From positions 1 through 27,964 of IMG/VR virus record IMGVR_UViG_3300030390_001624: a stretch of 27,964 nt of DNA, one strand, 5' to 3'. The DNA comes from a virus. Positions 4,099-27,846 of the stretch are shown piece after piece; the first letter of the stretch is position 1; the number at the start of each line of letters is the position of its first letter. The notes under the pieces are model-generated. The model did not search any database and was not told the DNA's origin. It worked only from the letters and a program-made list of their open reading frames with translations. A program made the translations under genes and the position numbers.

Positions 4099-5003
4099 TA
4101 AATCACCCCTCGTACAGTTAGTGATATATTTGATTTGATTGGTGTAGTGTACGTCACATTTAGATCTCGCACAAAGCCATAAGCTAGAGTTACGTCACCT
4201 ATTAATGATGGATTACCTATAAATACAGTAGGATAGTCACCCAAGCTGGATATGCTGGAGTAAGCAGAATCAAGCAGCGGTGTATCAACCATGATATCGT
4301 AATTCACCAATTTAGCTTTAAAGCCACTGCCGTATGATAGGTTGCCGAACTGGTCTTCGTTAACAGGTCTAAAATTTAGCTGCTCAGCTCCAGTGCCCCA
4401 TTGAGCGTCACCGATAGCTACCTGCTCACCAAAAACACAAGTCCCGACACTCGCGCCACCGGTAAATGTAATTTGAATTTTCCCGTCAGTTATTGGTGGT
4501 AAGTCTATCAGCACGAATTTATCAATGATAGAGAATCCGCTGTAATAGTAGTTAAACCATCCGTTAACAAGCGGGCGAGTTTTAAGCTCTATTTCTTTGT
4601 TGTAAATCTCAGCTCCAGCGCCATTAAACGCTTTCACTGTTGCGCTACTGCATAGCACGTTAAAGCATGCAACTGAATTAACTAACTCAATCGGTGTAAA
4701 CTCAATTACAATATCTTCGCCAGTTGATGATGTGTTATTTGTCACATCAAACATTTTATAACGATTAGTTGCGCCGACTCTTACCCAAGTTGCGGGTTTT
4801 TTTGCTGCGCCCACCTCTGGCTCATCCGTTGTCGATGGGTCTGCAACAACTTCATAAACACTGTGATTTGATGTTTTAATTACGCGCTGGCCAAGATTGT
4901 AAGTGCCAGCGCTCCATACCACCTCCCCCTGAGCCACATCAGGCTCAGGGATTGATGAATTTAATTTGACAGTCGTAACTGTCATCGGTTTAAGAAAAAT
5001 CAC
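4098..5003 (-). CDS. Distal tail / baseplate-like structural protein (301 residues)
   Basis: First gene after the tape measure, with its GTG start overlapping the tape-measure stop (GTGA at 5000-5003). An N-terminal module (about 25-85) has VVWSAGTYNLGQRVI, then a VYEVVAD segment and ATWVRVGATNRYKMFD, a pattern seen in tail-tip proteins of several siphoviruses. The middle is a beta-sandwich-like region with KIQITFTGGASVGTCVFGEQ, which may be a carbohydrate-binding fold. An ATG at 4985 is the alternative start but has no ribosome site. It probably builds the tail tip around the tape-measure C-terminus. Confidence 0.65.
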   Translation of the reverse strand: MIFLKPMTVTTVKLNSSIPEPDVAQGEVVWSAGTYNLGQRVIKTSNHSVYEVVADPSTTDEPEVGAAKKPATWVRVGATNRYKMFDVTNNTSSTGEDIVIEFTPIELVNSVACFNVLCSSATVKAFNGAGAEIYNKEIELKTRPLVNGWFNYYYSGFSIIDKFVLIDLPPITDGKIQITFTGGASVGTCVFGEQVAIGDAQWGTGAEQLNFRPVNEDQFGNLSYGSGFKAKLVNYDIMVDTPLLDSAYSSISSLGDYPTVFIGNPSLIGDVTLAYGFVRDLNVTYTTPIKSNISLTVRGVI

Positions 5004-8000
5004 TGCTCAGCGACCTCGCTTTGTAGATACTCAAGCTTTCTAACACTATTAGCTGTTTTAGAGCTATTAACAACAATTTGCTGATTTGCATTATCTAACT
5101 CTTTTCGTAGCTCTTTTAATTCGTTAACTATAGCATTATTTTGCTGTGATTCATAAAGGCTTGGTTTTGGTGGAATGGTCGGGTCTGGCCAAATATCATC
5201 GCGACCTTTATCAACAACATCACCAATTGTTATAGGCTCAGCAATTGCGCGAATATCACCACTCAAATCAAGAATATAATCACCAATCGTTATGATTGCA
5301 TCTTTGACTTCAACGAGTGTTTCAACTTGCTTTGTTTGTATTGCTTTATCAAACTCAGCAAGTGCCGACTGCTCACTCTCAAGCAGTTTGATAGCATCCT
5401 CAATACTCAGCACCGACTTATCAATGCCTAGAATTGCATCAACTTGATCTTGAAGCGCGGCCTTTTGATCTTCAATTGCTTTAAGTTCAGCGTCTAATTG
5501 CTGCTGAGCTAGCGCCCGCAAAGCTTCAAAATCCTCACTCGTAAAATCACCTAGCTCTTGTTGTGCATCTTTTAGAGCGTTGATTGCATCAGCAACAGAC
5601 ATTACACTTTCATCAATACCGAGAGCTACATCAACCTGTTTATTTATAGCGTCAATCTGTGCTTGCGCGTCAGATTTTGCTTGCTCTATCTGCTGCTTAA
5701 TTAACTCCTCTTGAGCTGTGAGCTTTTGCAGTGTATCGCTAGCTGTTACCGCCTCAAGTTCAGCCTGAGCCTTTTGAAACTCAATGATAGCTAAATCAAG
5801 CGAAAGCACCGAATCATCAAGACCAAGAATTGCCTTCACTTCATCTTCTGTGGCTTTTTTATCTAGCTCTATCTGTGCAAGCTGCGCGTCAAGCATCGCT
5901 TTGGCTGAGCTTATTTGGGCCTCTTTCGCTGATTCAGTTGCCGCTATCTGTCTGTCGATATCACTTAGCCTTGAGTCTGCAAGATTGCCTATCTCTGACT
6001 TAGCAAACGCATCCCTAGCCGCCGCTATCATTGCGTCAGTTGAGTTGCTAAAACTTCCTAGCTCACCGATATTTTGAGCTTTAGTAAAATCGCCAGCCCT
6101 TGCTGCTGCCAGCGCTTCGTTAGCTGTAAACTGTTTCGATGCCGCGCCAAGGCTGCCAGCGATTTGCGATACGAGTGAATGCTCATCATTTAACGCTGAT
6201 AATCTAGCATTTGCTAGTGATTCAACTGCGTCAATTTCTGCGTTATAACCTTCTTGAGCTGCATTTGCTAGCGCATCATATTTAGCTAGCTCAGCATCAA
6301 GCGATTTTTCAAGCATTGATTTTGAATTATCAAAGTTAGTTTGCAGTGATGAAAGTAAGTCATTGTAAGCATTTCTAGCTGCAGATACACCGGCAAGCTG
6401 AGCTTCAAGCGCTTGCATCTGAGTGTCAGCAACTTTATTTATCTTGTCAATCTCAGCGCTTCTAGCTGACTCTAAAGCAGTTTTTGCGTTGTTAACATTA
6501 TCTTGTAATGATTGATATAACTGCTCACTAGCCTGCTGCTGCTCATTAATTAGCTCTATCTCTGCGCTGTATCTGTCTCTAGACTTTTGGCTCAACTCAT
6601 CAAGCTTTAAAAGCTCAGCCTTAAGCGCTTTATCTAATTGCTGCTCAGCAAATGCAATGTTATCGACTAAAACTTTGCGCTCAGCTTCACGCGCTTTTGT
6701 TAACTCTTCCTGAGATTTAATTAAATCCTCTTGCGCCCAAATTTCTTTAAGTAGTGCGTGTAATGATTCATCAGTGCGAGCTAATTCCATTTCGCGACTA
6801 AGCGCTAGGGCCGCACTTGAATCGCCTTGAGCCTTGAGTAATCTGATTTGTAAATTTGTTTGTTGGTCTAAAAGTTGCTGAGCTTTTTGAAGTTCCGCAG
6901 CTCGCTCTTTTTCAGCTCTAGCGGCATCGTCAAGCGCCCAAATTTGTTTCATTAACTCGTGCAGTGACTCGTCCATACTTTCTAGTTCAAGCTTGCGAGC
7001 TAAAGCCAGCGCTTCCTCTGATTTACCTTGCTTCTCGAGTAACGTGATTTGCAAGTCAAGCTTGTCTTTTGCTAAATCCTCGAGCGCATCAATATATTCA
7101 GCCATTGCTGGATTGATTTCCATTAGAGCCGCAAATAGTTTTTGACCTTCCTCAGTTGTTAAGTCGATACCCTCGACAAGATTCCTAAATTCATCTTTTG
7201 AAGTGACAAGCGATAAACCGAGAGATTCAAATACGTCACTGAGCGAGCCTTCTAGTATTGATAGCTGCTCTGACTCGCTGTAAAAGTTTTCGAAGTATGA
7301 GCTCGTTAATTCTGCGAATCTCTCAGCGCTGCCCGTTAACTCGATTAGTGATTGAGCCACCTCGATTTGCATAACGCTAGATAGGTCGCTTAGGCTCATA
7401 CCCATGTTTGATATGGCATCATTAAACACAGCCTGCTCAAATGCTACGCGCTGCAGTGTTTCAAACAGACCCTCACCCATTTTTTGATATTCAGCCATTG
7501 CTGGTACAACGTGAGCTGTTATTAAATCGGCTTGCTGACTAAATATCGCCTCCAACTCTTGCTGTATCTCATCGCCCGTTTTATCTTTAAATGAGATTGA
7601 GCCTAAATTAACTTGAAATGATGCAAGCATTTTTTCGACTTCTGCCGCAGTACCTAGACCGAGCGAAGCAATCGAGGCTGAGACAGAATCACCGATAAAC
7701 CCGAAAATCTCAGCCATCTGCTTGTTGATTTCTGAGTCGATTTGGCTTGTGTTTGTGTTGGTGCTTGTCTTTTTAGATAAGCCAAAGAATTTCTTTTTCG
7801 TTGTCTCGACAACTTGATACATCTCAGCAGCAAGAGCGCCTGAGTTGAATACTTCGCTTAATGATTGAGATAAGAATGATATGCCACTATCAACTAGTTT
7901 TTTCTTCGAGCTGCCGAAGAATCCACCAAGAACTGAGCCGATAATGTTATCACCAAATGAGCCTAGAATTTTGTTAAGACCAAGTTTTTCAGCGATGTTA

Positions 8001-10252
8001 ATAATGCCAGAGCCGCTTTGTGTTTTACCAAGTTGGCCGGCGTAACCAGTATCGCCAAAATCTAAACCGGTAACAAACTGTTTAGTTAGTCGCTCAATAC
8101 CGCCAGACAAACCAGTTAACGCACTTCTGATTCCGCGCAATTCAGCTAGTTGATCAATTTGTATTGTTTCAAACTGCTCAAATGAGTCACCAAGGGATGA
8201 TGATTTTGCAGAGTTATCGCCTAGCGTTGTACCTGTGCCGCCTTCTTTGGGTGGTGTATAGCTACCACCTCCACCGCTAAAGCCGCCTAACAAGCTCGCC
8301 ATGATGCCAATCATAGCCGCACCAGCCACAAAATTAACAGGGAATGGCGCTGCAAATGCACTAGTAATAGCTGTTAAAGCGTTAGCGCTTTGTTTGGTGC
8401 CTTCCTGTGCTACATGAGCCGCTGTTGCTGCTTGTCCTGCTGCGATTTTCTGGAATGACATGGCAATCTCAGCTACTGTCATCGCCTTTTCTATCGCGTG
8501 GAAAGTTTTAGCTGCTGCGGTTTTTTCTGAAAACATACCTGCCGCTGCACCAGCCAGGTTTTTATAATTCGCAATCTCAGCAGACGCTTTTTGATTATTG
8601 AGTTTCATCTGCGCTTTATCTAGCGCTACAGTATCAGCGCCTTTCTTTTTGCGCTCTGAATTAATTTTGCTTTGCAGCTTATCAATTTTGACCATCTGCG
8701 AGCCGTAATCATTTAGCGCGTCAGATATACCGCCGAAAGCATCGACTATAACCGAGCCTGTGTTAGACCACGCACCGCCGAAGTTGTCAATATCATCAAT
8801 AAGCGAGCTTATATCGTTTTTAGTCGCGTTAAGTATATCCGCTTGAGTTTTATATCTTGCTAGCGCGTCATTTGTATCAGCATCTTTAGCAGCTTTAAGC
8901 TCTGCGTATTTTGCACCGATAGCTCCGAGCGCATCAATTTGATCATCAGCAGCCTTTATAGCCTCGTCACGCTCGGTCATTATCGAGATGATAGAATCGC
9001 GCCTAACTTGAGCCGTTATTTCCGCTTTGCTTTTTGCGTCATTAAAAATCTTAGTTGAGGCATCAACAGCTAAATCAGCGAGTCTGTTAAGCTCGGATTC
9101 AAGATTGAAACTACCATCAGAGAATGGATCTAACGCTTGACCGATTGCTTTACCGTAAACTTTTGCAGACTCTACAGCTTGCGCAAACTTAACACCTAAA
9201 ACCTCAGCGAAAGCTTGACCATAAGCCGCACCATAATCAACAAGCGAAGCAATCTCAACAGTCATCAACTGAATTGCAGCTCTGATATTCTCAGGCATAT
9301 TCCTAAATGCGTCAGACATAAATGCTGTTGATTTATTAACGTCATCAGCCCAAAGCTTACCAGCATGATCAATCAACTCGGTTATGTATTTAACTGTTAA
9401 AGCTACATCATCACCAAAGCCGCTAAACTTAGTACTCATGATTGTAAATGATTGTTGTAATTGCCCTGAAACAATAAAATCATTCATTGAGTTGAGTGCG
9501 TTGATACCAGTTTTAACTGAGTCTTTTAGTAAGTCGCCGACTCCCTGTTTTGATATATTTAAAAATAAAGTATCGTAGCTGTCACCGAGGTTAGATAGTT
9601 GACCATCAAGAGTATCAATCCTGTTAGCCATGGCTCCGGCAAATTCATTCTCACCAAGAGCCATTAGATAACCTTCAATCGCTCCAGCTTCTTTTTGCAC
9701 CGTCTTGGTTATGCCACGAAAAGTGAATGATACTTTATCGCCTTCACTGCGCGACTTAATGCCAAACTCTTTTAGTCGCTCAAACTCACCTACAGTAGCA
9801 TCGGCTACAGCCTCTATCATTTGATTCAGGCTTTTACCCATGGAGCTAGCTGTATTGCCGTATGAATTAAGTGCTTTTTCAGATGGCGTTAATCCAAGGT
9901 TAACAAGCTTTGCAAAGCTGTCAGTCGCTTGCGCTAAATCGTATGGTGTTGTTGATGCAAACTTTTGTATGCCTTCGAAAGCTGCTGCGGCATTTGAGGC
10001 GCTACCAGTTGCCGTAAGTAATTGCGCGTTAAGCACATCAAACTGACGAGTAACTGATACCAACTTACTACCACCAGCAATTGCAGCGCCAGCACTTGCA
10101 GCCACTACAGCTAGCTTACCGAATGACGATGTTAGGCTTTGGGTTGATTTATCAGCCCTGCCACCCGCCCTCGTCAAGCCGTCCATATCTCTTTGAGCTT
10201 TAACAATTCCGCTTGAATCTGCTCTAAATCCAAGCTCGACTAAATTAGCCAT
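5000..10252 (-). CDS. Tail tape measure protein
   Basis: Sets tail length and is ejected with the DNA. 1750 residues, by far the largest gene. The N-terminal 80-260 region (GIQKFASTTPYDLAQATDSF, then GEFERLKEFGIKSRSEGDKV and ETLDGQLSNLGDSYD-like residues) matches tape-measure N-terminal domains. A hydrophobic patch lies at about 630-660 (FVAGAAMIGIMASLLGGF), as usual for this family. The C-terminal third is coiled coil with repeats: two copies of a unit ending ARTDESLHALLKEIWA (about 1064-1107 and 1130-1173) and three copies of LGIDxSVxSxxDAI (about 1472, 1541 and 1604). At about 0.15 nm per residue the tail would be near 260 nm. GAGGTGATAT before ATG is a strong ribosome site. It has its own promoter-like element, after a terminator. 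Confidence 0.95.
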   Translation of the reverse strand: MANLVELGFRADSSGIVKAQRDMDGLTRAGGRADKSTQSLTSSFGKLAVVAASAGAAIAGGSKLVSVTRQFDVLNAQLLTATGSASNAAAAFEGIQKFASTTPYDLAQATDSFAKLVNLGLTPSEKALNSYGNTASSMGKSLNQMIEAVADATVGEFERLKEFGIKSRSEGDKVSFTFRGITKTVQKEAGAIEGYLMALGENEFAGAMANRIDTLDGQLSNLGDSYDTLFLNISKQGVGDLLKDSVKTGINALNSMNDFIVSGQLQQSFTIMSTKFSGFGDDVALTVKYITELIDHAGKLWADDVNKSTAFMSDAFRNMPENIRAAIQLMTVEIASLVDYGAAYGQAFAEVLGVKFAQAVESAKVYGKAIGQALDPFSDGSFNLESELNRLADLAVDASTKIFNDAKSKAEITAQVRRDSIISIMTERDEAIKAADDQIDALGAIGAKYAELKAAKDADTNDALARYKTQADILNATKNDISSLIDDIDNFGGAWSNTGSVIVDAFGGISDALNDYGSQMVKIDKLQSKINSERKKKGADTVALDKAQMKLNNQKASAEIANYKNLAGAAAGMFSEKTAAAKTFHAIEKAMTVAEIAMSFQKIAAGQAATAAHVAQEGTKQSANALTAITSAFAAPFPVNFVAGAAMIGIMASLLGGFSGGGGSYTPPKEGGTGTTLGDNSAKSSSLGDSFEQFETIQIDQLAELRGIRSALTGLSGGIERLTKQFVTGLDFGDTGYAGQLGKTQSGSGIINIAEKLGLNKILGSFGDNIIGSVLGGFFGSSKKKLVDSGISFLSQSLSEVFNSGALAAEMYQVVETTKKKFFGLSKKTSTNTNTSQIDSEINKQMAEIFGFIGDSVSASIASLGLGTAAEVEKMLASFQVNLGSISFKDKTGDEIQQELEAIFSQQADLITAHVVPAMAEYQKMGEGLFETLQRVAFEQAVFNDAISNMGMSLSDLSSVMQIEVAQSLIELTGSAERFAELTSSYFENFYSESEQLSILEGSLSDVFESLGLSLVTSKDEFRNLVEGIDLTTEEGQKLFAALMEINPAMAEYIDALEDLAKDKLDLQITLLEKQGKSEEALALARKLELESMDESLHELMKQIWALDDAARAEKERAAELQKAQQLLDQQTNLQIRLLKAQGDSSAALALSREMELARTDESLHALLKEIWAQEDLIKSQEELTKAREAERKVLVDNIAFAEQQLDKALKAELLKLDELSQKSRDRYSAEIELINEQQQASEQLYQSLQDNVNNAKTALESARSAEIDKINKVADTQMQALEAQLAGVSAARNAYNDLLSSLQTNFDNSKSMLEKSLDAELAKYDALANAAQEGYNAEIDAVESLANARLSALNDEHSLVSQIAGSLGAASKQFTANEALAAARAGDFTKAQNIGELGSFSNSTDAMIAAARDAFAKSEIGNLADSRLSDIDRQIAATESAKEAQISSAKAMLDAQLAQIELDKKATEDEVKAILGLDDSVLSLDLAIIEFQKAQAELEAVTASDTLQKLTAQEELIKQQIEQAKSDAQAQIDAINKQVDVALGIDESVMSVADAINALKDAQQELGDFTSEDFEALRALAQQQLDAELKAIEDQKAALQDQVDAILGIDKSVLSIEDAIKLLESEQSALAEFDKAIQTKQVETLVEVKDAIITIGDYILDLSGDIRAIAEPITIGDVVDKGRDDIWPDPTIPPKPSLYESQQNNAIVNELKELRKELDNANQQIVVNSSKTANSVRKLEYLQSEVAEQ

Positions 10253-10346: not shown

Positions 10347-10805
10347 TTATTTTGCTTGCTGTGCTAGTTGTCTCATTTTCTTTGATACTATCTCTGATTT
10401 GAAAGCTTTGAGCTTGTGATAAAACTCAGCGTCATTTTGCTCCATCAGGCAAGGTCTAGCTAAATCATTTGTTGCTTCACTTTGCTCGTTAATGTAGGTC
10501 TTTGACATTTTAACAAGTGCCATGACCTCAAAGGGCGTTAAGTGGGCAACTGATTTTGAATAAGCTTCAATCTCTGCGAATTTGAGCGGCTTGTAACCGT
10601 ATTCACCGCTATCAAATAAACCCAAGTCGTGCCATGCGCTAACAATAAAAGAATCAGCCTCCGGCATTTCAAGTCTCGGGTCGTTTTTATCTAGCTGCTC
10701 AATTCTGGATTTTGGCTTTTCGTCTTTCTTGTGTGACTTAGGGCGACTATGAAGCCACCCTAAGTGTTGTGCATAATTCGCTAAGTCTCGACTTAGCTCT
10801 CGATA
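10347..10805 (-). CDS. Tail assembly chaperone T part, made by -1 frameshift from G
   Basis: This frame continues the G chaperone after a -1 slip at A AAT TTT (10811-10805); the first T codon is TAT. The fusion would be about 282 residues: 130 from G and 152 from here. The segment starts YRELSRDLANYAQHLGWLHS, has a Lys-rich linker, then PEADSFIVSAWHDLGLFD and FAEIEAYSKSVAHLTPFEVM. An internal ATG at 10667 could begin a 106-residue ORF, but it lacks a ribosome site, and the frame is open upstream to the slip site, which supports the fusion. In lambda the GT product binds the tape measure and recruits tail-tube subunits; its position just before the tape measure agrees. Confidence 0.85.
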   Translation of the reverse strand, partial: YRELSRDLANYAQHLGWLHSRPKSHKKDEKPKSRIEQLDKNDPRLEMPEADSFIVSAWHDLGLFDSGEYGYKPLKFAEIEAYSKSVAHLTPFEVMALVKMSKTYINEQSEATNDLARPCLMEQNDAEFYHKLKAFKSEIVSKKMRQLAQQAK

Positions 10806-10811
10806 AAATTT
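10736..10811 (-). other. Programmed -1 frameshift signal with two stem-loops
   Basis: The slippery heptamer A AAT TTT spans 10811-10805 in the G frame (GCA AAT TTT). After a 7-nt spacer comes a hairpin, GCTAAGTC (10797-10790) and GACTTAGC (10787-10780), that contains the G stop codon. A second hairpin follows at 10765-10736, ACTTAGGGTGGC with GTCGCCCTAAGT, 12 pairs including two G-U, loop TTCATA. The CTAAGT/ACTTAG segments of the two hairpins are also complementary to each other, so a pseudoknot or switching fold is possible. Confidence 0.88.
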
Positions 10812-11194
10812 GCACGCTCAGCCATAAAATTCCCGACTTGTACTCGGATATCTTTGTGCTGCATGTAAACTTCGACAGCTTTGTCGTAGCTAAAATCTAC
10901 CGGTAAATTTTCCCAGCCAATAGTTAACTTTGCGTACAACTCACAAGTGCGCAGCTTTTCTTTTTCAACATCAAATTCGTCTTTCTTTGCTTTGCCTTTA
11001 CTATCTTGGCGAGCACGCTTAACAACTAGGCTTTCGAACTCTTTTGAGTCAATGCCTTTTACTGTAATTGATAGAGGTTTTTTTTCTGCTTTATCAGCAT
11101 AAACAACTTCACCGGTTGACGGATGCTTTAGCAATAACGTAGCGCCTTTTTCTGCCGCTGATTCTGTGTCAAAAATTGATAAAATATTAGCCAT
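10793..11194 (-). CDS. Tail assembly chaperone G
   Basis: 133 residues, acidic/basic mixed, no membrane segment: MANILSIFDTESAAEKGATL, then VKGIDSKEFESLVVKRARQD, and a C-terminal helical half with LTIGWENLPVDFSYDKAVEV. The GWENLPVDFSYD and VEVYMQHKDIRVQVGNFMAERANF portions fit the small chaperones that lie between the tail-tube and tape-measure genes in long-tailed phages. A proportion of ribosomes should slip near the end to give GT. AAGG stands 9 nt before ATG. A terminator lies upstream, between the tail-tube gene and this one. Family recognition rests mainly on position and the frameshift signal. Confidence 0.82.
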   Translation of the reverse strand: MANILSIFDTESAAEKGATLLLKHPSTGEVVYADKAEKKPLSITVKGIDSKEFESLVVKRARQDSKGKAKKDEFDVEKEKLRTCELYAKLTIGWENLPVDFSYDKAVEVYMQHKDIRVQVGNFMAERANFIES

Positions 11195-11285: not shown

Positions 11286-11738
11286 TTACGCTGCAACGAA
11301 TACGTAAGTACCCGACATGATGCGCATCGAAACGTTTGCACGATAAATCGTATCTTGAGCTAATGCTGCACTAGTAAACGAGTAAACAAGCGTTTCAAAG
11401 TATTCAACGTCACCATTTTGGTGGGTAATCTTAATTGCAACTCGGGCATCAACTTTGGTTTCATTGTGATGGTCGCGTAAGATGACTTGACCTGCATCAG
11501 TGCGGTCGTTATCAACAGTGATAGGCGTTTCATTCCAATCACGCGAGCCTTTCAAGTGTACAACGTCACGACTTGATAGGTTATAAGTTGTGACGTCTGC
11601 AAAGGTTGCGCCGATTTCGCCGATATCGACTACTTGGCCGACATCAGTAAATGTTAACGCAACAAAACCTGCCGCGTCTTTTGTTGCTGCTAGAGTCGAT
11701 GAGACTCCAATCAGTGTTCCGTCTGCTGTTCTAGACAT
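11286..11738 (-). CDS. Major tail tube protein
   Basis: Builds the tail tube as stacked hexameric rings around the tape measure. 150 residues. The core (about 30-145) has VVDIGEIGATFADVTTYN, HLKGSRDWNETPITVD and LVYSFTSAALAQDTIYRA, the signature of siphovirus tail-tube proteins in which the strand pattern leads to polymer contacts. It lies in the standard place, between the tail terminator and the G/GT chaperones, followed by a terminator. AGGAAA stands before ATG at 11738, and promoter copy 7 is just upstream, so it may have its own strong transcript. A paralogue is encoded at 15833-16375. Confidence 0.9.
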   Translation of the reverse strand: MSRTADGTLIGVSSTLAATKDAAGFVALTFTDVGQVVDIGEIGATFADVTTYNLSSRDVVHLKGSRDWNETPITVDNDRTDAGQVILRDHHNETKVDARVAIKITHQNGDVEYFETLVYSFTSAALAQDTIYRANVSMRIMSGTYVFVAA

Positions 11739-11753
11739 ATTTCAGTTTCCTGT

Positions 11754-11796
11754 GTTATATAACAAATTAGTATAAGCTTATACGTTTAAGCAATAA
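11754..11796 (-). promoter_or_regulatory. Tail-tube gene promoter with two palindromes (copy 7 of the element)
   Basis: Minus strand reads GCTTATACTAATTTGTTAT within 11777-11754. TATACT (11774-11769) is a good -10, with a weak TTATTG -35 (11796-11791) at 16 nt. Two perfect palindromes overlap it: GTATAAGCTTATAC (11770-11783) and TGTTATATAACA (11753-11764), at the -10 side and near the expected start. They look like operator half-sites. Confidence 0.6.
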
Positions 11797-12187
11797 CAGT
11801 ATAGCGTATTGTTAGCGCCGTCTTCAAATGTGTTTCATCGTTATAGATTCCGCTTGGTTGAATCGTGCTAATTGATACTTTCTGACCGTTAAATTCGATA
11901 CCTGCGCTAGTGCCACGGGTAAAGTGGCTCATAATCGAATCAACAATTTCAAGGTTGTGAAGCCTTCGCCTTCTTAACTCTGTGCAGATAGTAACCTGAT
12001 AAAAGCCGCGCTGCACGTCCGAGCCATTCCCGACTTTACCTTCCACGCTAGTTGGTACTTCCTTTTCGGCTATGTAATCTTGATCAACCTTCGGAGTAAA
12101 CTGACTTCCGCTAACAGCAATCGGTAGGTTAGTGATTGATTTAAGCTTTTCAAGAAAGGCTTTATTTAATGCAAATTGATTTATCAT
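11786..12187 (-). CDS. Putative tail terminator protein (lambda U-like)
   Basis: Would cap the tail tube and join it to the head. 133 residues, with the alternating strand-helix layout of this small-protein group: N-terminal helix NKAFLEKLKSITNLPIAVSG, a middle SVEGKVGNGSDVQRGFYQVT, then HNLEIVDSIMSHFTRG and a C-terminal beta strand YNDETHLKTALTIRYTVIA. The order gp10-like, this gene, tail tube matches siphovirus connector modules. Start ATG at 12187 overlaps the previous stop as ATGA. The assignment is by position and fold-like pattern. Confidence 0.7.
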   Translation of the reverse strand: MINQFALNKAFLEKLKSITNLPIAVSGSQFTPKVDQDYIAEKEVPTSVEGKVGNGSDVQRGFYQVTICTELRRRRLHNLEIVDSIMSHFTRGTSAGIEFNGQKVSISTIQPSGIYNDETHLKTALTIRYTVIA

Positions 12188-12582
12188 CGTCTTTTAAGTA
12201 CCTCTTCCGCTACAATTTCGGGCCATTTGTCAGCGTTAATTCTGACAAAGCCATTAGGTGCTTTTTGCGACCATCCGTCATATTCAAGTCTTGGACCATA
12301 AACGACCGGATTATTAAAAGTAACCGCTTGACCAATCTCAACCGATGCAAACGTGGCGTTAAGCTCGGTAATCGAGTCGCTGCCACCTTCATTGTCTGGT
12401 TTGCTTGCATAGCTAATCGAGTTGATAGATGTATTCCAGTTGTTAATGAAATGACCTTTATCAACTGGAGTGTCTGTAATTACCTGATTGCCAACACGAA
12501 TCCCACTAGCGACAAAAACGTCTTTGCCTTTTGAGCGTGTCATTTTAGCAATTGCGGCTAATTGGGATTCGATTGATTTCAT
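12184..12582 (-). CDS. HK97 gp10-like head-tail connector / minor tail protein
   Basis: 132 residues. The VITDTPVDKGHFINNWNTSI motif and the C-terminal NNPVVYGPRLEYDGWSQKAP segment are the hallmarks of the HK97 gp10 family, which has a G-N-W core and a late YGxxLEYG-like motif, and assists tail attachment. It precedes the tail-terminator candidate with an ATGA overlap. The ribosome site before ATG at 12582 is weak, and the upstream fibre gene ends 13 nt away. Confidence 0.85.
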   Translation of the reverse strand: MKSIESQLAAIAKMTRSKGKDVFVASGIRVGNQVITDTPVDKGHFINNWNTSINSISYASKPDNEGGSDSITELNATFASVEIGQAVTFNNPVVYGPRLEYDGWSQKAPNGFVRINADKWPEIVAEEVLKRR

Positions 12583-12594
12583 TTGAGCTTCAAC

Positions 12595-13590
12595 TTAAAT
12601 AAAGGCCAGTTGACGCCAGGCGCCCCACGCGCCAGAGTTTTTTACTCTTCTGAAAACGTTATCTTTAGTTGCGCCAGCTAGACCACTAGCCCATTGCTCA
12701 GAGTAGTCGTTTGAATGATATGTGCATCGGATATAGTAATAGTCTGCTGTTGGTGCGTTAGTGAAGTTGTTTCCGCTAAATGATCTAGAAACGTTAATGG
12801 TATCTAGATCTATTCCGCTTTCTTGATCTCCACTACCTATACCAAAATCACCAACCCTCAAATGCCTACCTGTAGTAGTGTCGATTGCCGAAGTTACCGA
12901 GGTTGAAAATGAATCGCTAGACGTTGTAAGAGTTCCATTTACACTAGTGTTTCCACCTAACCTAACTTTACCCGCGTTGGTGTATATTGAATAGTTGTTC
13001 TCTGTATTTGTCGCCCCCGAGATGTCGTGCAAGTAAATTCCGTAACTATTATCAACAGTGCCAAAGTTTTGAGTCGCTGTCATTCTGATACCGTAAAGGT
13101 TTTCTACATGACCAGTAGATCTGTTTCTCGACCAAAGTCTAAGCGCACAATTATCTTTTACAGTTCCAGTACTATTGTTTGAAGCTTCTAGAAATCCAGC
13201 GTAATTACCTCTTATTGTAGATTGCCCGCTGTAAAATGATTTACTTTCGAATAGGTAAAGTTGAGCCTTTGTTAACGGCACGCTGTACGAGTCAACATGG
13301 ACGTCACCGTAAATATCAACTCCGTGATAATCTATATCTGACAACGGGCTTGAAGTTGGTTTGAAATAGTAATTCATATCAACCCAGACAGGTCTGTTAG
13401 TTTCATTTACAGTACCCTCCGTGCGCTCCATGAGGACTTGACCGTCAAGAGTTAAAGCCTTGGTTGCAAGTGTGGCAACGGCTGTGTCACCATTAATAAC
13501 CTGAGCATCTTTTAAATCAACCAAACCATTAACAGTTTCCACCATCTCATTAGTTGTTGACGAATTTATAACTAACTTATTTATTGCCAT
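12595..13590 (-). CDS. Tail fibre with shared N-terminal anchor and pyocin-knob-like end
   Basis: 331 residues. The first 25 (MAINKLVINSSTTNEM, then ETVNGLVD) are nearly the same as in the tailspike at 14432-15823 and should be the particle-anchoring segment. The middle is beta-rich and repetitive (GVDIYGDVHVDSYSVPLT, NSYGIYLHDISGATNTENN), like a trimeric fibre. The C-terminus, about YYIRCTYHSND then RVKNSGAWGAWRQL, resembles a pyocin knob domain that contacts the cell surface. It lies between the stopper and gp10-like genes, an unusual location for a fibre, so it looks inserted. AAGGAAATAAAG precedes ATG. Confidence 0.75.
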   Translation of the reverse strand: MAINKLVINSSTTNEMVETVNGLVDLKDAQVINGDTAVATLATKALTLDGQVLMERTEGTVNETNRPVWVDMNYYFKPTSSPLSDIDYHGVDIYGDVHVDSYSVPLTKAQLYLFESKSFYSGQSTIRGNYAGFLEASNNSTGTVKDNCALRLWSRNRSTGHVENLYGIRMTATQNFGTVDNSYGIYLHDISGATNTENNYSIYTNAGKVRLGGNTSVNGTLTTSSDSFSTSVTSAIDTTTGRHLRVGDFGIGSGDQESGIDLDTINVSRSFSGNNFTNAPTADYYYIRCTYHSNDYSEQWASGLAGATKDNVFRRVKNSGAWGAWRQLAFI

Positions 13591-13592
13591 CT

Positions 13593-13958
13593 TTATTTCC
13601 TTAATTGAATTTTAGTGTAAACCTTGATGCCACTTACAGACTCAAGGCTTTTAATGCTTTTAGCGATGTAAGTTTCACCGTTAATTGTGATTTGATAGTC
13701 AATTTCTGGCTCAGTTTCAGAGTGAAAAAATACGAAACTGTCAGTTGCTAGAATGCGCTCACCATCAATTTCGTGTTGTTTATACCCAAGCAAAGGCGAG
13801 ACCTTACCCTCAATAACCGCATCAGGCTCAGGCGGTAAAACATCACCGAAATCGTCATATCCGCCACCGTTACCTTTCTTTATAAACTGACCATCAGCGC
13901 CAAATTTAGCAATGATTTTTGCGGCAGTTAGTCGAGCTTGTGCGTAATCAAAGCTCAT
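13593..13958 (-). CDS. Head-tail connector / stopper-like protein
   Basis: About 121 residues from ATG at 13958, which overlaps the upstream stop as ATGA. A GTG at 13967 would add three residues. The sequence has an N-terminal helix, then a beta-barrel-like region with AVIEGKVSPLLGYKQHEIDG, DSFVFFHSE and YQITINGETYIAKSIKSLES, ending KVYTKIQLRK. This length and beta pattern fit the small head-tail stopper group, and it follows the DnaT-like connector as expected. The exact family is not certain. Confidence 0.7.
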   Translation of the reverse strand: MSFDYAQARLTAAKIIAKFGADGQFIKKGNGGGYDDFGDVLPPEPDAVIEGKVSPLLGYKQHEIDGERILATDSFVFFHSETEPEIDYQITINGETYIAKSIKSLESVSGIKVYTKIQLRK

Positions 13959-14422
13959 GACCAGCACGCCTTTAGTTTACCCATGCCGCTGCCTACTGTG
14001 TACTTTCTTAGTAACCCATCAATCAGGCTTGTCGAGTGCTTATAATAAGCCGCGCTATTAGCTGCAAATTCAACCTCGCTTTCAAGTACGTCTAATTTGT
14101 CGCGCTGCTTGATTACTTGCCCCGAGCTGTTAGCGGTTGGTGATATAAACAATTCATTGTTTAAAGCCTGCCATGTAGCCTGTGCCGCTGCGTTTTCGAT
14201 GTTTTCGATTGTCACTAAGTCAGTCGGTAATTGCATTGATTGAGATTCAACTAATGCAACACCTTTGAATTTGTAACTAACATCAATAAAATCAACCGAG
14301 GCAACAACAACAGCCGCCTCGATTTGAGTGTCAGTAAACGATGAGTAGTCTTTTAATCGAGCATCAGCCCACGACTTAAAAGTCGCGAGCGTGATGTATG
14401 AGTTTTCGCCTAGTGTTAGCAT
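13955..14422 (-). CDS. Head-tail connector (DnaT-like / gp6-like) protein
   Basis: 155 residues starting MLTLGENSYITLATFKSWAD, a common opening of phage connectors annotated as DnaT-like. Helical features follow: DTQIEAAVVVASVDFIDVSY, then KGVALVESQSMQLPTD and IENIENAAAQATWQALNNEL. It likely binds the portal and passes to the stopper. AAGGAG before ATG at 14422 is a good ribosome site. The tailspike gene stops just upstream, showing an insertion between the coat and connector modules. Confidence 0.82.
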   Translation of the reverse strand: MLTLGENSYITLATFKSWADARLKDYSSFTDTQIEAAVVVASVDFIDVSYKFKGVALVESQSMQLPTDLVTIENIENAAAQATWQALNNELFISPTANSSGQVIKQRDKLDVLESEVEFAANSAAYYKHSTSLIDGLLRKYTVGSGMGKLKACWS

Positions 14423-14431
14423 TTTAACTCC

Positions 14432-15823
14432 TTAGTAGGTTGTTACATTACCATCTTTAACACCTACACCAGAGTGCCTTCGGATATATGCGTTAGCTGT
14501 GCCGTAAGCTGAAACACCAAACCTAGAGCCTACATCGGTACAGCTATCAAGCCACATCTCAACAGCACCGTCCCAAGCGCCAAATGCACCCGTTGAAAGA
14601 GTGCCCCCATTATACACATCGCCACCACTTACACCTGCCTTTGAGCCAAAATGCCAAACCTGTGTGCCATCATTAACGTGTCCAGCATTTGTACCAACAG
14701 AGCCAAGCCAGGTGCTGCCAATGTCAATCGCTTTTAACCCATCATGGATTGTTATACCGTTACACGAAAGTGACCCGCCTACAACTTGACCATTTTTAAA
14801 AGCGCTGCACCTTACTGTCAACATTGATGGCTCGACAGCTCCTTCAATGTGCAAGTTGAATCCATCCTTACTGTTACTTGATGATTCACTGTCAAATGCA
14901 GCGAAAAGCTTACACCCTAAAATCACAACACCATCAATTTCAGTCGGCGATACAGCCGTACCGTTTACCGCATAATTGAATTTACAGCTATCGGCAACAA
15001 CTACATTTGTACTTCCACCCCTAACTCGCAAAGCACCAGAATTCCCGCCTTGGAAAAATACATTGCTAATATAAAAATCATGATTGCCGCTAATTGAGCA
15101 TCCAACAGCGTTGAGTAGCACTCGGGTATTTTCATTACTCACAACGCCAGAATTTATGTGATGAACATACATAGCAACGTTATCGGTGTAAAATGAATTT
15201 GGAGTTGAGTTACATAAAGCTAGGCTGGCAACCTTTTTAAGTGTGATGCAATTGCCATGCTCATCCAATACCTTCGGATTTATAACTTGATTCGCATTGC
15301 TTCTCGATGCCTCATAAACAAAATCCTGGCCTGTTGTTTTTGCCCAAGTTAAATCATCAAAAGTTCCAGTTTCCACCCTACCATAAGCGGATTCAATTGT
15401 AATTGCAGAGGTTAGCATTTTGGTTGCATTTCCATTACAAAAACTTGAGCCTCTAGGGTAAACCCCACCCTTAACAAAAATTCTAGTTGGTAAGGATGTG
15501 GATATAGCTACATCAACAGCAGCTCCAATGCTTTTCTTTGCAGTAGCCCAAGATAAGCCGTCACCGCTGCTATCAGGGCGCGAAATATCTACGTATTGAA
15601 AATTTGTAAATTGACTAAAATCAATCAAATTCTCTGGGCGTAAATTTGCTGTGAAATAATCACCGCTGCGGATTGCTTTGACTTCTGGCAGTAAAGCAGG
15701 CCAATTAAATCCAGTAGGTGCGCTTTCCATGTATGAAACGCTAACGCTATCAACCAAACCATTAACAGTATCAAACATCTCGTTAGTAGTTGATGAGTTG
15801 ATGACTAATTTATTTATTGCCAT
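14432..15823 (-). CDS. Beta-helix tailspike with shared N-terminal anchor
   Basis: 463 residues. The N-terminal 25 (MAINKLVINSSTTNEM, then DTVNGLVD) match the fibre at 12595-13590. About 75-110 reads QYVDISRPDSSGDGLSWATA, a typical entry into a right-handed beta-helix, and the remaining body is a series of short strands with Asn/Gly turns (GVVILGCKLF, LTVRCSAFKNG, NGITIHDGLKAIDIGST) as in pectin-lyase-like spikes. Such spikes bind or cut surface polysaccharide; catalytic residues cannot be assigned by eye. It sits directly after the tail-tube paralogue (9-nt gap), suggesting a functional pair. AAGGATTAG precedes ATG. Confidence 0.78.
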   Translation of the reverse strand: MAINKLVINSSTTNEMFDTVNGLVDSVSVSYMESAPTGFNWPALLPEVKAIRSGDYFTANLRPENLIDFSQFTNFQYVDISRPDSSGDGLSWATAKKSIGAAVDVAISTSLPTRIFVKGGVYPRGSSFCNGNATKMLTSAITIESAYGRVETGTFDDLTWAKTTGQDFVYEASRSNANQVINPKVLDEHGNCITLKKVASLALCNSTPNSFYTDNVAMYVHHINSGVVSNENTRVLLNAVGCSISGNHDFYISNVFFQGGNSGALRVRGGSTNVVVADSCKFNYAVNGTAVSPTEIDGVVILGCKLFAAFDSESSSNSKDGFNLHIEGAVEPSMLTVRCSAFKNGQVVGGSLSCNGITIHDGLKAIDIGSTWLGSVGTNAGHVNDGTQVWHFGSKAGVSGGDVYNGGTLSTGAFGAWDGAVEMWLDSCTDVGSRFGVSAYGTANAYIRRHSGVGVKDGNVTTY

Positions 15824-15832
15824 TTCTAATCC

Positions 15833-16375
15833 TTAATTACCTAAAATTACTTGCCCCGAAGGGATTACTTGACCACCTAAAATAACAAACGTGACAGGGT
15901 CAAACCACGGATCAATCTGTCCATCTGAATCATAAACATAGCTGTTTGATTTAACTCTAAATTCAACCGTTGCACGATAAATTGAGTCCTGGGCAAGAGC
16001 CGAGCTAGTGAATGAATAAACCATAGTTGAGAAAAACTCGACTGCACCGCTTTGAGTGTTTTCTAACTTGATTGATACATAGCCGTTGATGTTGTTGCCA
16101 TTGTGATAGTCTTTTAGGATTTGCTGACCTGCGTCAGTTGTGATGTTATCAACTGTAACCGGAGTTGAACCCCAATCACGAGAGCCTTTTAAGTGCCCTA
16201 CATTGCGCGATGCCACGTTATACGTAGTAACATCAGCAAACACAGCGCCAATCTCGCCTACGTCAACCACAGCGCCAACTTCGGTGTATGTTTTAGCTTC
16301 ATAAGCTGCAAAGGTGTAAGCGCCTGGTAGTCCTGGGGATACCGAAACGATGACACCGTCAGAAGTCATGCTCAT
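15833..16375 (-). CDS. Second tail tube protein paralogue with C-terminal extension
   Basis: 180 residues from ATG at 16375, chosen because AGGA stands 6 nt upstream and because MSMTSDGVIVSVSPGL then aligns with the start of the main tail-tube protein; a TTG at 16381 is the alternative. The core VVDVGEIGAVFADVTTYN, HLKGSRDWGSTPVTVDN and MVYSFTSSALAQDSIYRA is closely similar to the protein at 11286-11738. After the shared core it adds about 30 residues including DPWFDPVTFVILGGQVIPSG, absent from the other copy. It may form a special ring, a second tube subunit or an adaptor for the spike encoded right after it; this is inference. Confidence 0.82.
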   Translation of the reverse strand: MSMTSDGVIVSVSPGLPGAYTFAAYEAKTYTEVGAVVDVGEIGAVFADVTTYNVASRNVGHLKGSRDWGSTPVTVDNITTDAGQQILKDYHNGNNINGYVSIKLENTQSGAVEFFSTMVYSFTSSALAQDSIYRATVEFRVKSNSYVYDSDGQIDPWFDPVTFVILGGQVIPSGQVILGN

Positions 16376-16410
16376 AATCAATCCTATTCGTTTATATTGT
16401 TTTCATTGTA

Positions 16411-16485: not shown

Positions 16486-16746
16486 ATGAACACAGAAAAA
16501 CAACTTCGCAATCAGCGAGTACAGCTAAAACAGCAAGCAGCGGCTTTGCGTGATAAAAAAGATAAAATCACCTCACTAACTGCTGAGAATTTATTGTTAA
16601 ACATTACGGTTAACAGTCAGCAAGATGAAATAACCGAGCTTGCTGCCGAGCTTTTAAGTGAGAGAAAAGCACATAATCAGACGATTAAATACTGTTACAC
16701 TGCGTTTATTAGTGTACTGGTGATTTTTGGGGTAATTTTATTATGA
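16486..16746 (+). CDS. Coiled-coil protein with C-terminal membrane segment (86 residues)
   Basis: First gene of a seven-gene forward cassette. Helical, Gln/Lys/Glu-rich heptads over residues 1-63 (RNQRVQLKQQAAALRDKKDK, LTAENLLLN), then a single C-terminal hydrophobic segment, TAFISVLVIFGVILL. No signal peptide, so it is probably tail-anchored with the coil in the cytoplasm. AAAAGGAGAGTGTC before ATG is a strong ribosome site. Its stop overlaps the next start as ATGA. Similar plan to the next gene. No family is recognised; it could be a superinfection or membrane-remodelling protein. Confidence 0.68.
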   Translation: MNTEKQLRNQRVQLKQQAAALRDKKDKITSLTAENLLLNITVNSQQDEITELAAELLSERKAHNQTIKYCYTAFISVLVIFGVILL

Positions 16747-17057
16747 ACAATCAAAATAAAAAAGACCAGCTAGTGATGGAGGTAAGCAGGCTTCGCAAGG
16801 AGAATAAAAAGCTCAGCGAGGATAATGCTAACCTTTGCGAGGAAATAAAATCCAAGAACATTAGAATTTCAATGTTTAGAGTAACTGAAAAGCAGGTTAA
16901 TCTAATGGAGATGTTTTGCGAAAAGGAACGCGAATACGGCAGTTCCATGGAAAGAAAATACGAAGACCTTAAGTTAGACTTTAAAAAGAGAGGGGCATTC
17001 ATGGTTGCGCAATTCATTGTTATTGGGTTGCTTTTAGCTGGGTTAATTTCATTATGA
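16743..17057 (+). CDS. Coiled-coil protein with C-terminal membrane segment (104 residues)
   Basis: Starts at an ATGA overlap. A charged coiled-coil (EVSRLRKENKKLSEDNANLC, then VTEKQVNLMEMFCEKERE) is followed by a C-terminal hydrophobic segment, MVAQFIVIGLLLAGLISL. The architecture matches the preceding gene, although sequence identity is low, so the pair may form a hetero-oligomeric coil in the inner membrane. Function is unknown. It ends in an ATGA overlap with the next small gene. Confidence 0.68.
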   Translation: MNNQNKKDQLVMEVSRLRKENKKLSEDNANLCEEIKSKNIRISMFRVTEKQVNLMEMFCEKEREYGSSMERKYEDLKLDFKKRGAFMVAQFIVIGLLLAGLISL

Positions 17058-17173
17058 ATAACGAACATCAAAACGATAACGATCAAGATTTTCTATCAAT
17101 GTTTATCGGCTTAGTCGGCGTGATAGCTTTTTCATGCCTTGTTTTTGCACTTATAATTTGGTGGCTTAAGTGA
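17054..17173 (+). CDS. Small single-span membrane protein (39 residues)
   Basis: ATG at 17054 (ATGA overlap), stop TGA at 17171-17173. A polar, Asn/Asp-rich N-terminus (NNEHQNDNDQDF) is followed by one membrane helix, SMFIGLVGVIAFSCLVFALI, then WWLK. The size and topology resemble phage membrane micro-proteins, but no function can be named. Confidence 0.62.
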   Translation: MNNEHQNDNDQDFLSMFIGLVGVIAFSCLVFALIIWWLK

Positions 17174-17253
17174 TTAATTGGAAACGAATTGGAAAGTACA
17201 TGTACTTCGCAGCACTTATAGTAACTATCGCTTACCTAGTAAGTGAGCTGTGA
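17170..17253 (+). CDS. Very small membrane peptide (27 residues)
   Basis: GTG start at 17170 overlaps the previous stop (GTGA); the stop is TGA at 17251-17253. The product is INWKRIGKYMYFAALIVTIA then YLVSEL: a basic N-terminus and one hydrophobic helix. The start is non-ATG and short, but the four-base overlaps on both sides and the chain of similar overlaps support translation. Confidence 0.5.
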   Translation: MINWKRIGKYMYFAALIVTIAYLVSEL

Positions 17254-17411
17254 AGGTTTTAATTATAGCGTTTCTAGTGCTGACAATTGGCGCTGGATAC
17301 GGTTGTTTTATTAACGATGCAATAAATGGCAATTGGTTAGGTTTATTGATGATAATACCGCTCGCGCTTTTAAGTGAGTGGCTTTTTAAATTAATTGGAG
17401 AGATAAGATGA
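17250..17411 (+). CDS. Small two-span membrane protein (53 residues)
   Basis: GTG at 17250 (GTGA overlap), stop TGA at 17409-17411. Hydrophobic segments VLIIAFLVLTIGAGYGCF and WLGLLMIIPLALLSEW flank a short polar loop (INDAINGN). The plan is holin-like, but it is far from the lysis operon and in another cassette, so a holin role is not assumed. The last codons overlap the next start as ATGA. Confidence 0.55.
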   Translation: MKVLIIAFLVLTIGAGYGCFINDAINGNWLGLLMIIPLALLSEWLFKLIGEIR

Positions 17412-17803
17412 GAGAATTTTTAGAATGGTGCGAAAAGGTTAAGCCGTTTATTGATGCCGCGCTTGATGGTGAAACAATACAGTATCAAGGTTCTGACGGG
17501 AAGTGGGAAGATAAGCTTTCCGGAAAGCTTTTTGCTGATGGGAGTTACCGCATTAAACCCAAAACCATAAACGTTAACGGGTTTGAGATTGCTGCCGGTG
17601 AGAAGGGCGGTTTGAAAGATGGTGATTTGTATTTTGTACCATGCCCTCACTTCGAAAGCCGATTTGTGTCTTCTATATGGCGTGACTTTAAGTCTGGCAA
17701 TCACCTATTAAAAGATGGCTTAGTTCACTTAACAAAAGAAAACGCAATTGCTCACGCTAAAGCAATGTTAGGTATTGACCCGAAAACAGGAGATAAACAA
17801 TGA
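17408..17803 (+). CDS. Phage protein of unknown function (131 residues)
   Basis: Soluble, with REFLEWCEKVKPFIDAALDG, then IQYQGSDGKWEDK, YRIKPKTINVNGFEIAAGE and a C-terminal helix, TKENAIAHAKAMLGI. The RIKPKTIxVNGFE segment looks like that of small conserved proteins in enterobacterial and marine phages. No membrane segment. GGAGAGATAAG precedes ATG, and its neighbours overlap on both sides (ATGA). Not assigned. Confidence 0.7.
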   Translation: MREFLEWCEKVKPFIDAALDGETIQYQGSDGKWEDKLSGKLFADGSYRIKPKTINVNGFEIAAGEKGGLKDGDLYFVPCPHFESRFVSSIWRDFKSGNHLLKDGLVHLTKENAIAHAKAMLGIDPKTGDKQ

Positions 17804-18000
17804 GCTATTTCGATAAAAACGTTGGACGCTTAGACGTTGGTGATTCATTCCCGCGCCTTAACAAAGCAAACGGCACTGTAATTACAGGCCAAAAAAGCAT
17901 TTGGCAATTAGCCGCAGCTAACAACGCAAAAATGAAGCGAGTGATAATCAAGCGGCGCGGTGTTGTGGTTAGTGATAAGTCAGGATTTGTTGAGAGTTAG
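17800..18000 (+). CDS. Small basic protein of unknown function (66 residues)
   Basis: Last gene of the forward cassette, starting at ATGA. The C-terminus is very basic (KMKRVIIKRRGVVVSDK), after VTGQKSIWQLAAANNAKMKR-like residues, which could bind nucleic acid. Stop TAG is followed 6 nt later by a terminator. No family recognised. Confidence 0.62.
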   Translation: MSYFDKNVGRLDVGDSFPRLNKANGTVITGQKSIWQLAAANNAKMKRVIIKRRGVVVSDKSGFVES

Positions 18001-18002
18001 AA

Positions 18003-18027
18003 GAAAGCCCCAATCAGGGGCTTTTTT
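18003..18027. terminator. Bidirectional terminator closing the cassette and the capsid unit
   Basis: AAAGCCCC, loop AATCA, GGGGCTTTTTT (18004-18027). It lies between the last forward cassette gene (stop at 18000) and the last minus-strand gene of the capsid block (stop at 18029), where the two units converge. A-rich sequence on the left serves the minus strand and the T-run serves the plus strand. Confidence 0.85.
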
Positions 18028-18028
18028 A

Positions 18029-18619
18029 TTATGGATAAAAATCAAGCTCCCCTTCGTAAATGTCAACCTTAGCCGTGGCGGTTTGTGACGAGTCAAACGA
18101 TTCAATCTCAAGTAAGATAACATCATTAGGGTTGAGGATATGATTACCACCAAATGAAGTTTGCGTAAATCCTTTCCCTTGATTTTGCGAGTTTGTGATT
18201 GCAAATATATCAGCATGTATCTTATTTGCTTCTACAGCAAGATTGATTAGTGGCGTATTAAATGTTACGTCAGTTTGTGCTGATATTGTTGACTCCGGTG
18301 GCGAGCCGTTAGTGTTGTAATTGTACCAAGTAGCTGATGCGTTAATTGTAACGTCTGACGGTTGTATTTTATAAGCTCGACCGATAACACCGGCACCTGT
18401 AGCGCCCAGCACTCTTGATTTTAAATCAACCGGCTTACTGCCAACCTTTAAAACAGAGTAAACTTTTTGCCCGACCGATGACAAGCTAACAGACCTTGAC
18501 ACCTCCCATTCCGTACCGCGCTTTTTGTTAACCTCGCTGTATGGCTGAATGATAAAAGCTGCTACACCACTTTCGAGCATCCTAGCCATATAGTCAGCGT
18601 AAAAATCTGATATATTCAT
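18029..18619 (-). CDS. Structural protein candidate, 196 residues
   Basis: No family recognised. Starts with a helical SDFYADYMARMLESGVAAFI, then beta-rich: SVGQKVYSVLKVGSKPVDLK, TINASATWYNYNTNGSPP, LLEIESFDSSQTATAKVDIY. The C-terminus DIYEGELDFYP is acidic. It follows two small coat-linked genes and precedes the forward cassette, so a capsid decoration or head-fibre role is possible. The ribosome site is weak (GGG, about 11 nt before ATG). Confidence 0.6.
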   Translation of the reverse strand: MNISDFYADYMARMLESGVAAFIIQPYSEVNKKRGTEWEVSRSVSLSSVGQKVYSVLKVGSKPVDLKSRVLGATGAGVIGRAYKIQPSDVTINASATWYNYNTNGSPPESTISAQTDVTFNTPLINLAVEANKIHADIFAITNSQNQGKGFTQTSFGGNHILNPNDVILLEIESFDSSQTATAKVDIYEGELDFYP

Positions 18620-23742: not shown

Positions 23743-24201
23743 ATGAGTGAAATTAAATGGGTAGATGGTGCTGAGTTCTTTGCTAGCCACCAGCAATATA
23801 AAATTGTGAATGGAAAAGCTTTTTATGGTGACAAGCTTGGTTGGCTGGAGTCTGGTTACACTTGCGAATATCTTATGTCGCTACCCAACTACATCAAGCG
23901 CCCAAGGCAAGATAATTCAACCGGTGATTGGCCGAAGGTTGGTGATATCGTTACTTGGGGCTTTTGCGAAATGGTAGGGGAGGTTAAGTGCATATCAGAC
24001 GATTTAGCTTGGATTAAGAGTGAGGAGGATGTGTACATAAATCAAGAGCTGCTCAACCTTCGAGAGCCATTAACACCGGAACAGTTACTCATGAAAGGCT
24101 TAATGGGTTTGGTGGGGTGTCACGCCGTCAAGAGTAGCGCCGCACTTGCGATTGCGACCGATATTATGAAATATTACAACCTAACCAAAAAGCCGCAATA
24201 G
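23743..24201 (+). CDS. Forward accessory gene with an MSEIKW module (152 residues)
   Basis: Lone forward gene inside the minus-strand head block. The N-terminus MSEIKWVDGAEFFASHQQ resembles that of the gene at 27154-27846 (MSEIKWKEGAVCYADGEQ), which suggests a shared module. The middle WPKVGDIVTWGFCEMVGEVK is a beta-barrel-like segment and the C-terminal part (EPLTPEQLLMKGLMGLVG) is helical. AAAAGGAGATAG precedes ATG. It ends inside the terminator that follows the MuF-like gene. Function unknown; probably a late-inserted (moron) gene. Confidence 0.7.
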   Translation: MSEIKWVDGAEFFASHQQYKIVNGKAFYGDKLGWLESGYTCEYLMSLPNYIKRPRQDNSTGDWPKVGDIVTWGFCEMVGEVKCISDDLAWIKSEEDVYINQELLNLREPLTPEQLLMKGLMGLVGCHAVKSSAALAIATDIMKYYNLTKKPQ

Positions 24202-27153: not shown

Positions 27154-27846
27154 TTACTTGTAGCACTTATCTTTGTGCATTTCATAAAGCTCACCGTAAA
27201 AATTAGCCTTATCAATATCTTGCTGTAACTTATCTTTTTTACCTGCCCTGATTCTGTACTTAAGAATATTACCCAAACAGAAACCATGCCATTGCTCTTT
27301 AGTCATCGAGCGAGCGATAATCTCGATAGATTCAATACCTTCTATTAGTTGATAATGACTTGGGCTTTTTACGTTATCGCTAATATCCGGAGTTAAGTCC
27401 GGAGCTGTTTTAGGTGCGGACTTTTCGCGCTTAATCATCTCGCGTTTTAAGCTGCCTATTGCCATTAACTGCTCGAATGTCACTTTTACATCCCCGCCAT
27501 CACTCCTCAAATCTTCTCGCCAATTGTGATTATCAAGACCAAGAAACGCTTTAGCATCTTGGAGAGGCCAATCACTAAAATGAAATCCCTTCAACCCAAA
27601 AAGCTTGAGCGCATCCATAGCTATATTAAACTTTTCCTCAGTGTCCAACTCTGACTTAGTTATGTAGTAACCCTCTTGAGGCTCGTTTAATTGGAGGTTT
27701 TTGGAAAGGTCAACCATGTCAGGAAATGAATAACAAATACATAATGTTGACTTGTTAATTAACTCATACCTATCATCACCACCACAAAACCATTGCTCAC
27801 CATCCGCATAACAAACAGCACCCTCCTTCCACTTGATCTCACTCAT
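27154..27846 (-). CDS. MSEIKW-module protein with C-terminal DUF3310 domain
   Basis: 230 residues. The N-terminal module (MSEIKWKEGAVCYADGEQ) matches the gene at 23743. Residues 158-230 carry the DUF3310 pattern: NVKSPSHYQLIEG, GFCLGNILKYRIRAGKKDKL and a QQDIDKANFYGELYEMHK helix. DUF3310 proteins are frequent in phages and often annotated as putative nucleotide kinases, but their biochemical role is poorly established. A linker of about 80 residues rich in Lys/Asp joins the parts. AGGAGAGTGAA precedes ATG. Expected to be an accessory early-late protein. Confidence 0.82.
   Translation of the reverse strand: MSEIKWKEGAVCYADGEQWFCGGDDRYELINKSTLCICYSFPDMVDLSKNLQLNEPQEGYYITKSELDTEEKFNIAMDALKLFGLKGFHFSDWPLQDAKAFLGLDNHNWREDLRSDGGDVKVTFEQLMAIGSLKREMIKREKSAPKTAPDLTPDISDNVKSPSHYQLIEGIESIEIIARSMTKEQWHGFCLGNILKYRIRAGKKDKLQQDIDKANFYGELYEMHKDKCYK

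Follow-up and report, generated by a model that had tools for sequence, protein, structure and literature searches.

The late module of the phage studied here codes for two tail-tube paralogues, the second of which, tubeB, bears a C-terminal arm and directly precedes the gene for a spike/fiber-like protein, spike1. This much is a solid sequence observation; as for the mechanism behind it, we tentatively propose that tubeB is a duplicated tube subunit that is built into the tail tube and docks spike1 through its arm.

The window, i.e., the whole 27,964-base virus record analyzed, carries this siphophage late module on its minus strand. From high to low coordinates, the module starts with the small and large terminase, the head morphogenesis protein, portal, scaffold and major capsid protein. 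These are followed by a PHROG 5335 protein (18029-18619), a block of plus-strand ORFs, tubeB (15833..16375), spike1 (14432..15823), the head-tail adaptor Ad1 (13955..14422; PHROG 477, 9.4e-20), the head closure protein Hc1 (13593..13967; PHROG 161, 1.5e-13) and a second fiber-like protein, spike2 (12595..13590). Next come the neck/tail completion protein Ne1 (12184..12582; PHROG 169, 1.5e-32), the tail terminator (11786..12187; Pfam Phage_tail_terminator_5, 3.8e-11; PHROG 179), tubeA (11286..11738), the chaperones (a tail assembly chaperone at 10793..11194; PHROG 313, 1.9e-9) and the 1750-aa tape measure protein (5000..10252; PHROG 7740, 7.4e-126), with all of the genes from tubeB onwards lying on the minus strand. 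Thus, tubeA occupies the canonical slot in the order terminator, tube, chaperones and tape measure. In contrast, tubeB is placed 4.1 kb upstream of it, with spike1 starting 9 bp past the tubeB stop, bearing out the original prediction that tubeB adjoins a tailspike and tubeA the chaperones. Promoter-like matches for tubeB were fewer than in shuffles and we claim no promoter for it.

The 150-aa tubeA and the 180-aa tubeB align with 86 identities over 148 positions (58%; BLASTP E = 1e-62), which is far past chance, and both match PHROG 158, the major tail protein (1.4e-11 and 7.5e-10, respectively), with the Pfam Phage_TTP_12 match remaining below the family cut-off. The three segments that they had been predicted to share (GEIGAxFADVTTYN, HLKGSRDW and VYSFTSxALAQDxIYRA) are all present, and both minus-strand ORFs are found where they had been reported. 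For tubeB, the ORF list gives a TTG start at 16381; we instead take the ATG at 16375, which has an AGGA upstream and yields the 180-aa product. Residues 1-149 constitute the tube domain and about 150-180 the arm. The AlphaFold model of tubeB reaches moderate confidence (pLDDT 61); the solved structures nearest to it in Foldseek searches are the tubes of phage YDC107 and lambda (6e-6 and 1.4e-5, the latter to gpV in 8k36), with TM-scores of about 0.5. Accordingly, a tube β-sandwich fold comparable to that of lambda gpV is predicted for tubeB at the moderate confidence of the model.

Both tube ORFs are intact and, with synonymous sites saturated (pS 0.77) and a pN of 0.29, the two copies have long been kept under purifying selection. 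Their identities are clustered, with 28/36 positions in residues 34-69 and 15/18 in residues 119-136 being identical as compared to 43/96 in the remainder. Residues 34-69 are the most conserved stretch (best 36-residue window p = 0.03) and span the β-hairpin region into which the ring-to-ring contact loop of tube proteins falls (PMC8718954). Such conservation is as expected if tubeB must stack with tubeA, and suggests from the sequence that it may be fit to do so.

The roughly 30 extra C-terminal residues attributed to tubeB in the original prediction are real and begin at residue 150. Encoded at 15833..15928 (minus strand; ..SDGQIDPWFDPVTFVILGGQVIPSGQVILGN), this arm is missing from tubeA and every other aligned homolog, barring a shorter extension of its own in one distant duplicate discussed below. 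It is rich in hydrophobic, β-prone residues, is too short to be an Ig or FN3 domain and has no Pfam match or significant relative in phages; AlphaFold yields no confident model for it (pLDDT about 36-40). Its best phage matches, a T4-like gp34 and a cyanophage structural protein, were rejected (E 0.9-7).

The adjacent spike1 (463 aa) can be assigned by sequence to the spike/fiber families, as it matches PHROG 16653 'hydrolase' (2e-50) and PHROG 32409 'tail fiber' (6e-34), and it is 57% identical to a Pseudoalteromonas phage HM1 protein along its entire length. A single-sequence AF2 model with which we checked for a β-helix was unusable (pLDDT 33). Just downstream of the spike1 homolog in phage HM1, a terminase-like gene contains an intein-like stretch (L012:10167-12797). 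Spike2, which sits among the neck genes and weakly matches the tail-fiber PHROG 1836, has only its first 25 residues in common with spike1. Of these, 23 are identical, and at the nucleotide level 65 of the 75 bases are identical, with seven of the nine changed codons being synonymous. An N-terminus thus kept by selection in both spikes implies a common docking partner, for which the tubeB arm is one candidate and a neck or head protein another.

In a 29-row tree of tube proteins, tubeA and tubeB are sisters with 100/100 support, on a long stem and apart from all other tubes, pointing to a lineage-specific duplication; gene conversion between them could mimic a recent one. Among 50,697 phage records there are no two-copy relatives, all 33 records with a tubeB relative and all 109 with a tubeA relative having a single copy. 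Scans of IMG/VR and GTDB with tubeB and of IMG/VR with the tubeA+tubeB alignment recovered no relatives, and the tubeA scan retrieved distant ones only (32-33% identity). Branch lengths of 0.71 versus 0.19 in the tree hint at faster evolution of tubeB, for which relative-rate tests in the window were not significant.

We also scanned IMG/VR with the tube protein of Salicola phage CGphi29 as the query and ran profile searches on the recovered loci, which uncovered duplicates of two kinds, namely tandem pairs and one dispersed case. The tandem group comprises short contigs related to phage CGphi29 (L039, L041, L045, L046, L051, L052 and similar), with two tube genes about 10 bases apart and no extension. 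In the tree, the second copy of L046 clusters with that of L039, suggesting that the tandem duplication is older than their split. In Acinetobacter phage Effie, tube and chaperone-like genes precede the terminase and are separated from the remaining tail genes (L004:4029-5399), apparently as a relocated block.

The dispersed case (L062/L063) is a phage that, over the compared region, is identical to a locus on the Methylophaga MAG contig NZSL01000014. Its canonical tube gene (L062: 10001-10459) has a 71% identical duplicate at 17861-18367, 7.4 kb away and beyond the genes for the tape measure and tail tip. The 168-aa duplicate has about 16-19 extra C-terminal residues, evolves faster than its partner (pooled relative-rate p = 2e-4) and its stop codon overlaps, within TAATG, the start codon of a gene for a 1,236-aa protein that includes a putative Ig domain. 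We term this protein fiber-like because of its size, position and Ig domain; it matches nothing in the phage records and is not significantly similar to spike1. Throughout the late module, the phage is a distant relative of that in the window (TerL 54%, major capsid protein 39%, portal 34%). Both have a dispersed, C-terminally extended tube duplicate directly before a large fiber-like gene. However, they differ in the sequences of the arm and fiber and in the location of the duplicate, which in the second phage follows the tail-tip genes. Since the two tube pairs are placed apart in the tree, the arrangement seems to have originated on two occasions. As neither the two arms nor the N-termini of spike1 and the fiber-like protein show significant sequence similarity, the correspondence in pairing is positional only. 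Among 57 genomes of one family and 369 sampled from one class, there was no third duplicated-tube case.

Based on these observations, we posit that the duplicated subunit would have kept its tube-forming core, acquired a C-terminal arm and entered the tail tube, either as a minor component or in the form of one or several special rings that stack with those of tubeA. The arm would exit the tube domain at the position of the surface extensions borne by lambda gpV, SPP1 gp17.1* and the tube proteins of the 936 phages, and would dock the spike1 encoded directly downstream, and perhaps also spike2 with its common 25-residue N-terminus, making the tubeB-spike1 gene pair a potential spike-mounting cassette. 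The main support for a specialized, spike-paired tubeB is the recurrence of the arrangement in the second phage. The mounting of spikes by tubeB is further favored by the paralogy and tube fold, the purifying selection, the hairpin conservation and the lineage-specific duplication, by the N-terminus kept in common by both spikes, which suggests a common docking site, and by the established adhesin-bearing tube extensions of the 936 phages. Against it, there are just two independent cases, compared after the fact, the arm is predicted without confidence and the pairing is positional only. The original prediction of a specialized ring or side-fiber adaptor is partly upheld, being the best-supported reading; the presence of tubeB in tube rings is predicted from sequence and context, whereas its incorporation into the virion, its mixing with tubeA and the arm-spike contact are what we infer. 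It is also possible, if on balance doubtful, that tubeB acts as a dedicated bracket, whose arm captures the N-terminus of the adjacent spikes so as to array them along the shaft or at a set level of it rather than at the tip, with such cassettes arising repeatedly.

Next in our ranking, and rather unlikely, is that tubeB makes up a special ring or serves as a stabilizing minority subunit, with its arm folded onto the adjacent ring, its proximity to a spike being by chance. The C-arm of SPP1 gp17.1 (residues 143-176), of nearly equal length and position, indeed bridges rings (PMC7666168), the hydrophobic, β-prone composition of the tubeB arm fits such packing and the location of tubeB before the head-tail adaptor genes is compatible with a head-proximal role. 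However, gp17.1 and gp53, which carry the C-arm in SPP1 and 80alpha, are the sole or major tube proteins of these phages, whereas tubeA lacks such an arm, and the recurrence of an extension next to a fiber-like gene in the second phage would be left unexplained.

The slot between the major capsid protein and Ad1 contains differing large genes in related Vibrio phage genomes (L087:3895-7151 vs. L086:6617-7213; L007:1383-6656) and is an insertion hot spot, where some of the genes have head-decoration matches. Consequently, spike1 could be a head protein: in this alternative, which we regard as improbable, it would be a head or neck fiber in a decoration-gene slot and tubeB an unrelated duplicate remaining in the block. 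The related phages with other large genes at this position (1.151.O vs. 137E35-1), the head-decoration matches in 1.119.O (phrog_24595, phrog_2647) and, weakly, 1.151.O (phrog_766), and the presence of spike2 among the neck genes are all in keeping with it, but the duplicate and fiber-like gene of the second phage are located past the genes for the tape measure and tip, outside any head/neck slot. The least probable explanation, to which we give little credence, is that tubeB is a redundant copy, or one that serves as the tube protein under other conditions, devoid of structural specialty. While the tandem duplicates on related contigs indicate that duplication itself is common in the group, those copies are unextended, in contrast to tubeB with its C-terminal extension and conserved core.

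Unequal tube subunits are already known as an idea from several phages. In SPP1, gp17.1 and gp17.1* are made in a 3:1 ratio by frameshift, and the C-arm of the former folds onto the next ring (PMC7666168). As proposed for tubeA and tubeB, plain and C-terminally extended subunits thus occur in one tube; however, the gp17.1* extension is an FN3 domain produced from one gene, whereas in the window the extension is an approximately 30-aa arm, present in tubeB only, and no programmed frameshift is involved as tubeB is a separate gene, beside a spike gene. In the 936 lactococcal phages, tube subunits are extended by frameshift with carbohydrate-binding modules (PMC6669499). Their MTP and TpeX, like the proposed tubeB, place an adhesive function on the tube via the C-terminus of some subunits, though with the adhesin fused by the frameshift rather than encoded as a separate gene like the adhesin candidate of the window. 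Lambda gpV, with its C-terminal Ig domain, is a single gene unlike the two-gene tubeA/tubeB system. Several separate major-tail-protein genes have been annotated in actinophages (PMC11080557, PMC10652937). One such, Microbacterium phage DizzyRudy, has three separate paralogous tube genes, which, as in the window, differ in C-terminal length (gp17, gp19 and gp20 of 286, 586 and 255 aa; gp19 51% and gp20 42% identical to gp17). These, in contrast, are clustered in the tail operon with no spike gene annotated between them, and are major tail proteins by annotation rather than by PHROG 158 comparison. Hence, the earlier contention that a second tube subunit is usually the product of a frameshift and not of a separate gene was too strong, given DizzyRudy, other actinophages and the IMG/VR tandem duplicates.

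We found no description in open-licence papers of a dispersed, extended tube duplicate paired with a separate spike gene. If true, the proposed mounting of spike1 by tubeB would represent a modular route by which siphophages gain new receptor-binding proteins on the tail shaft, through tube duplication plus an arm and a spike. It can be reduced to a concrete two-gene test, and offers a search rule for further cases, namely to look for fiber genes that come after a dispersed, extended tube paralogue.

Elsewhere in the window, four small plus-strand ORFs (16486-18000) break the minus-strand late operon between the head and tail genes; two of these (16486-16746 and 16743-17057) have a coiled-coil-like look and a hydrophobic segment at the end. 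Further, two proteins on opposite strands (27154-27846 and 23743-24201) have a common N-terminal start, MSEIKW..GA, the first showing a nucleotide-kinase PHROG match in its C-terminal half.
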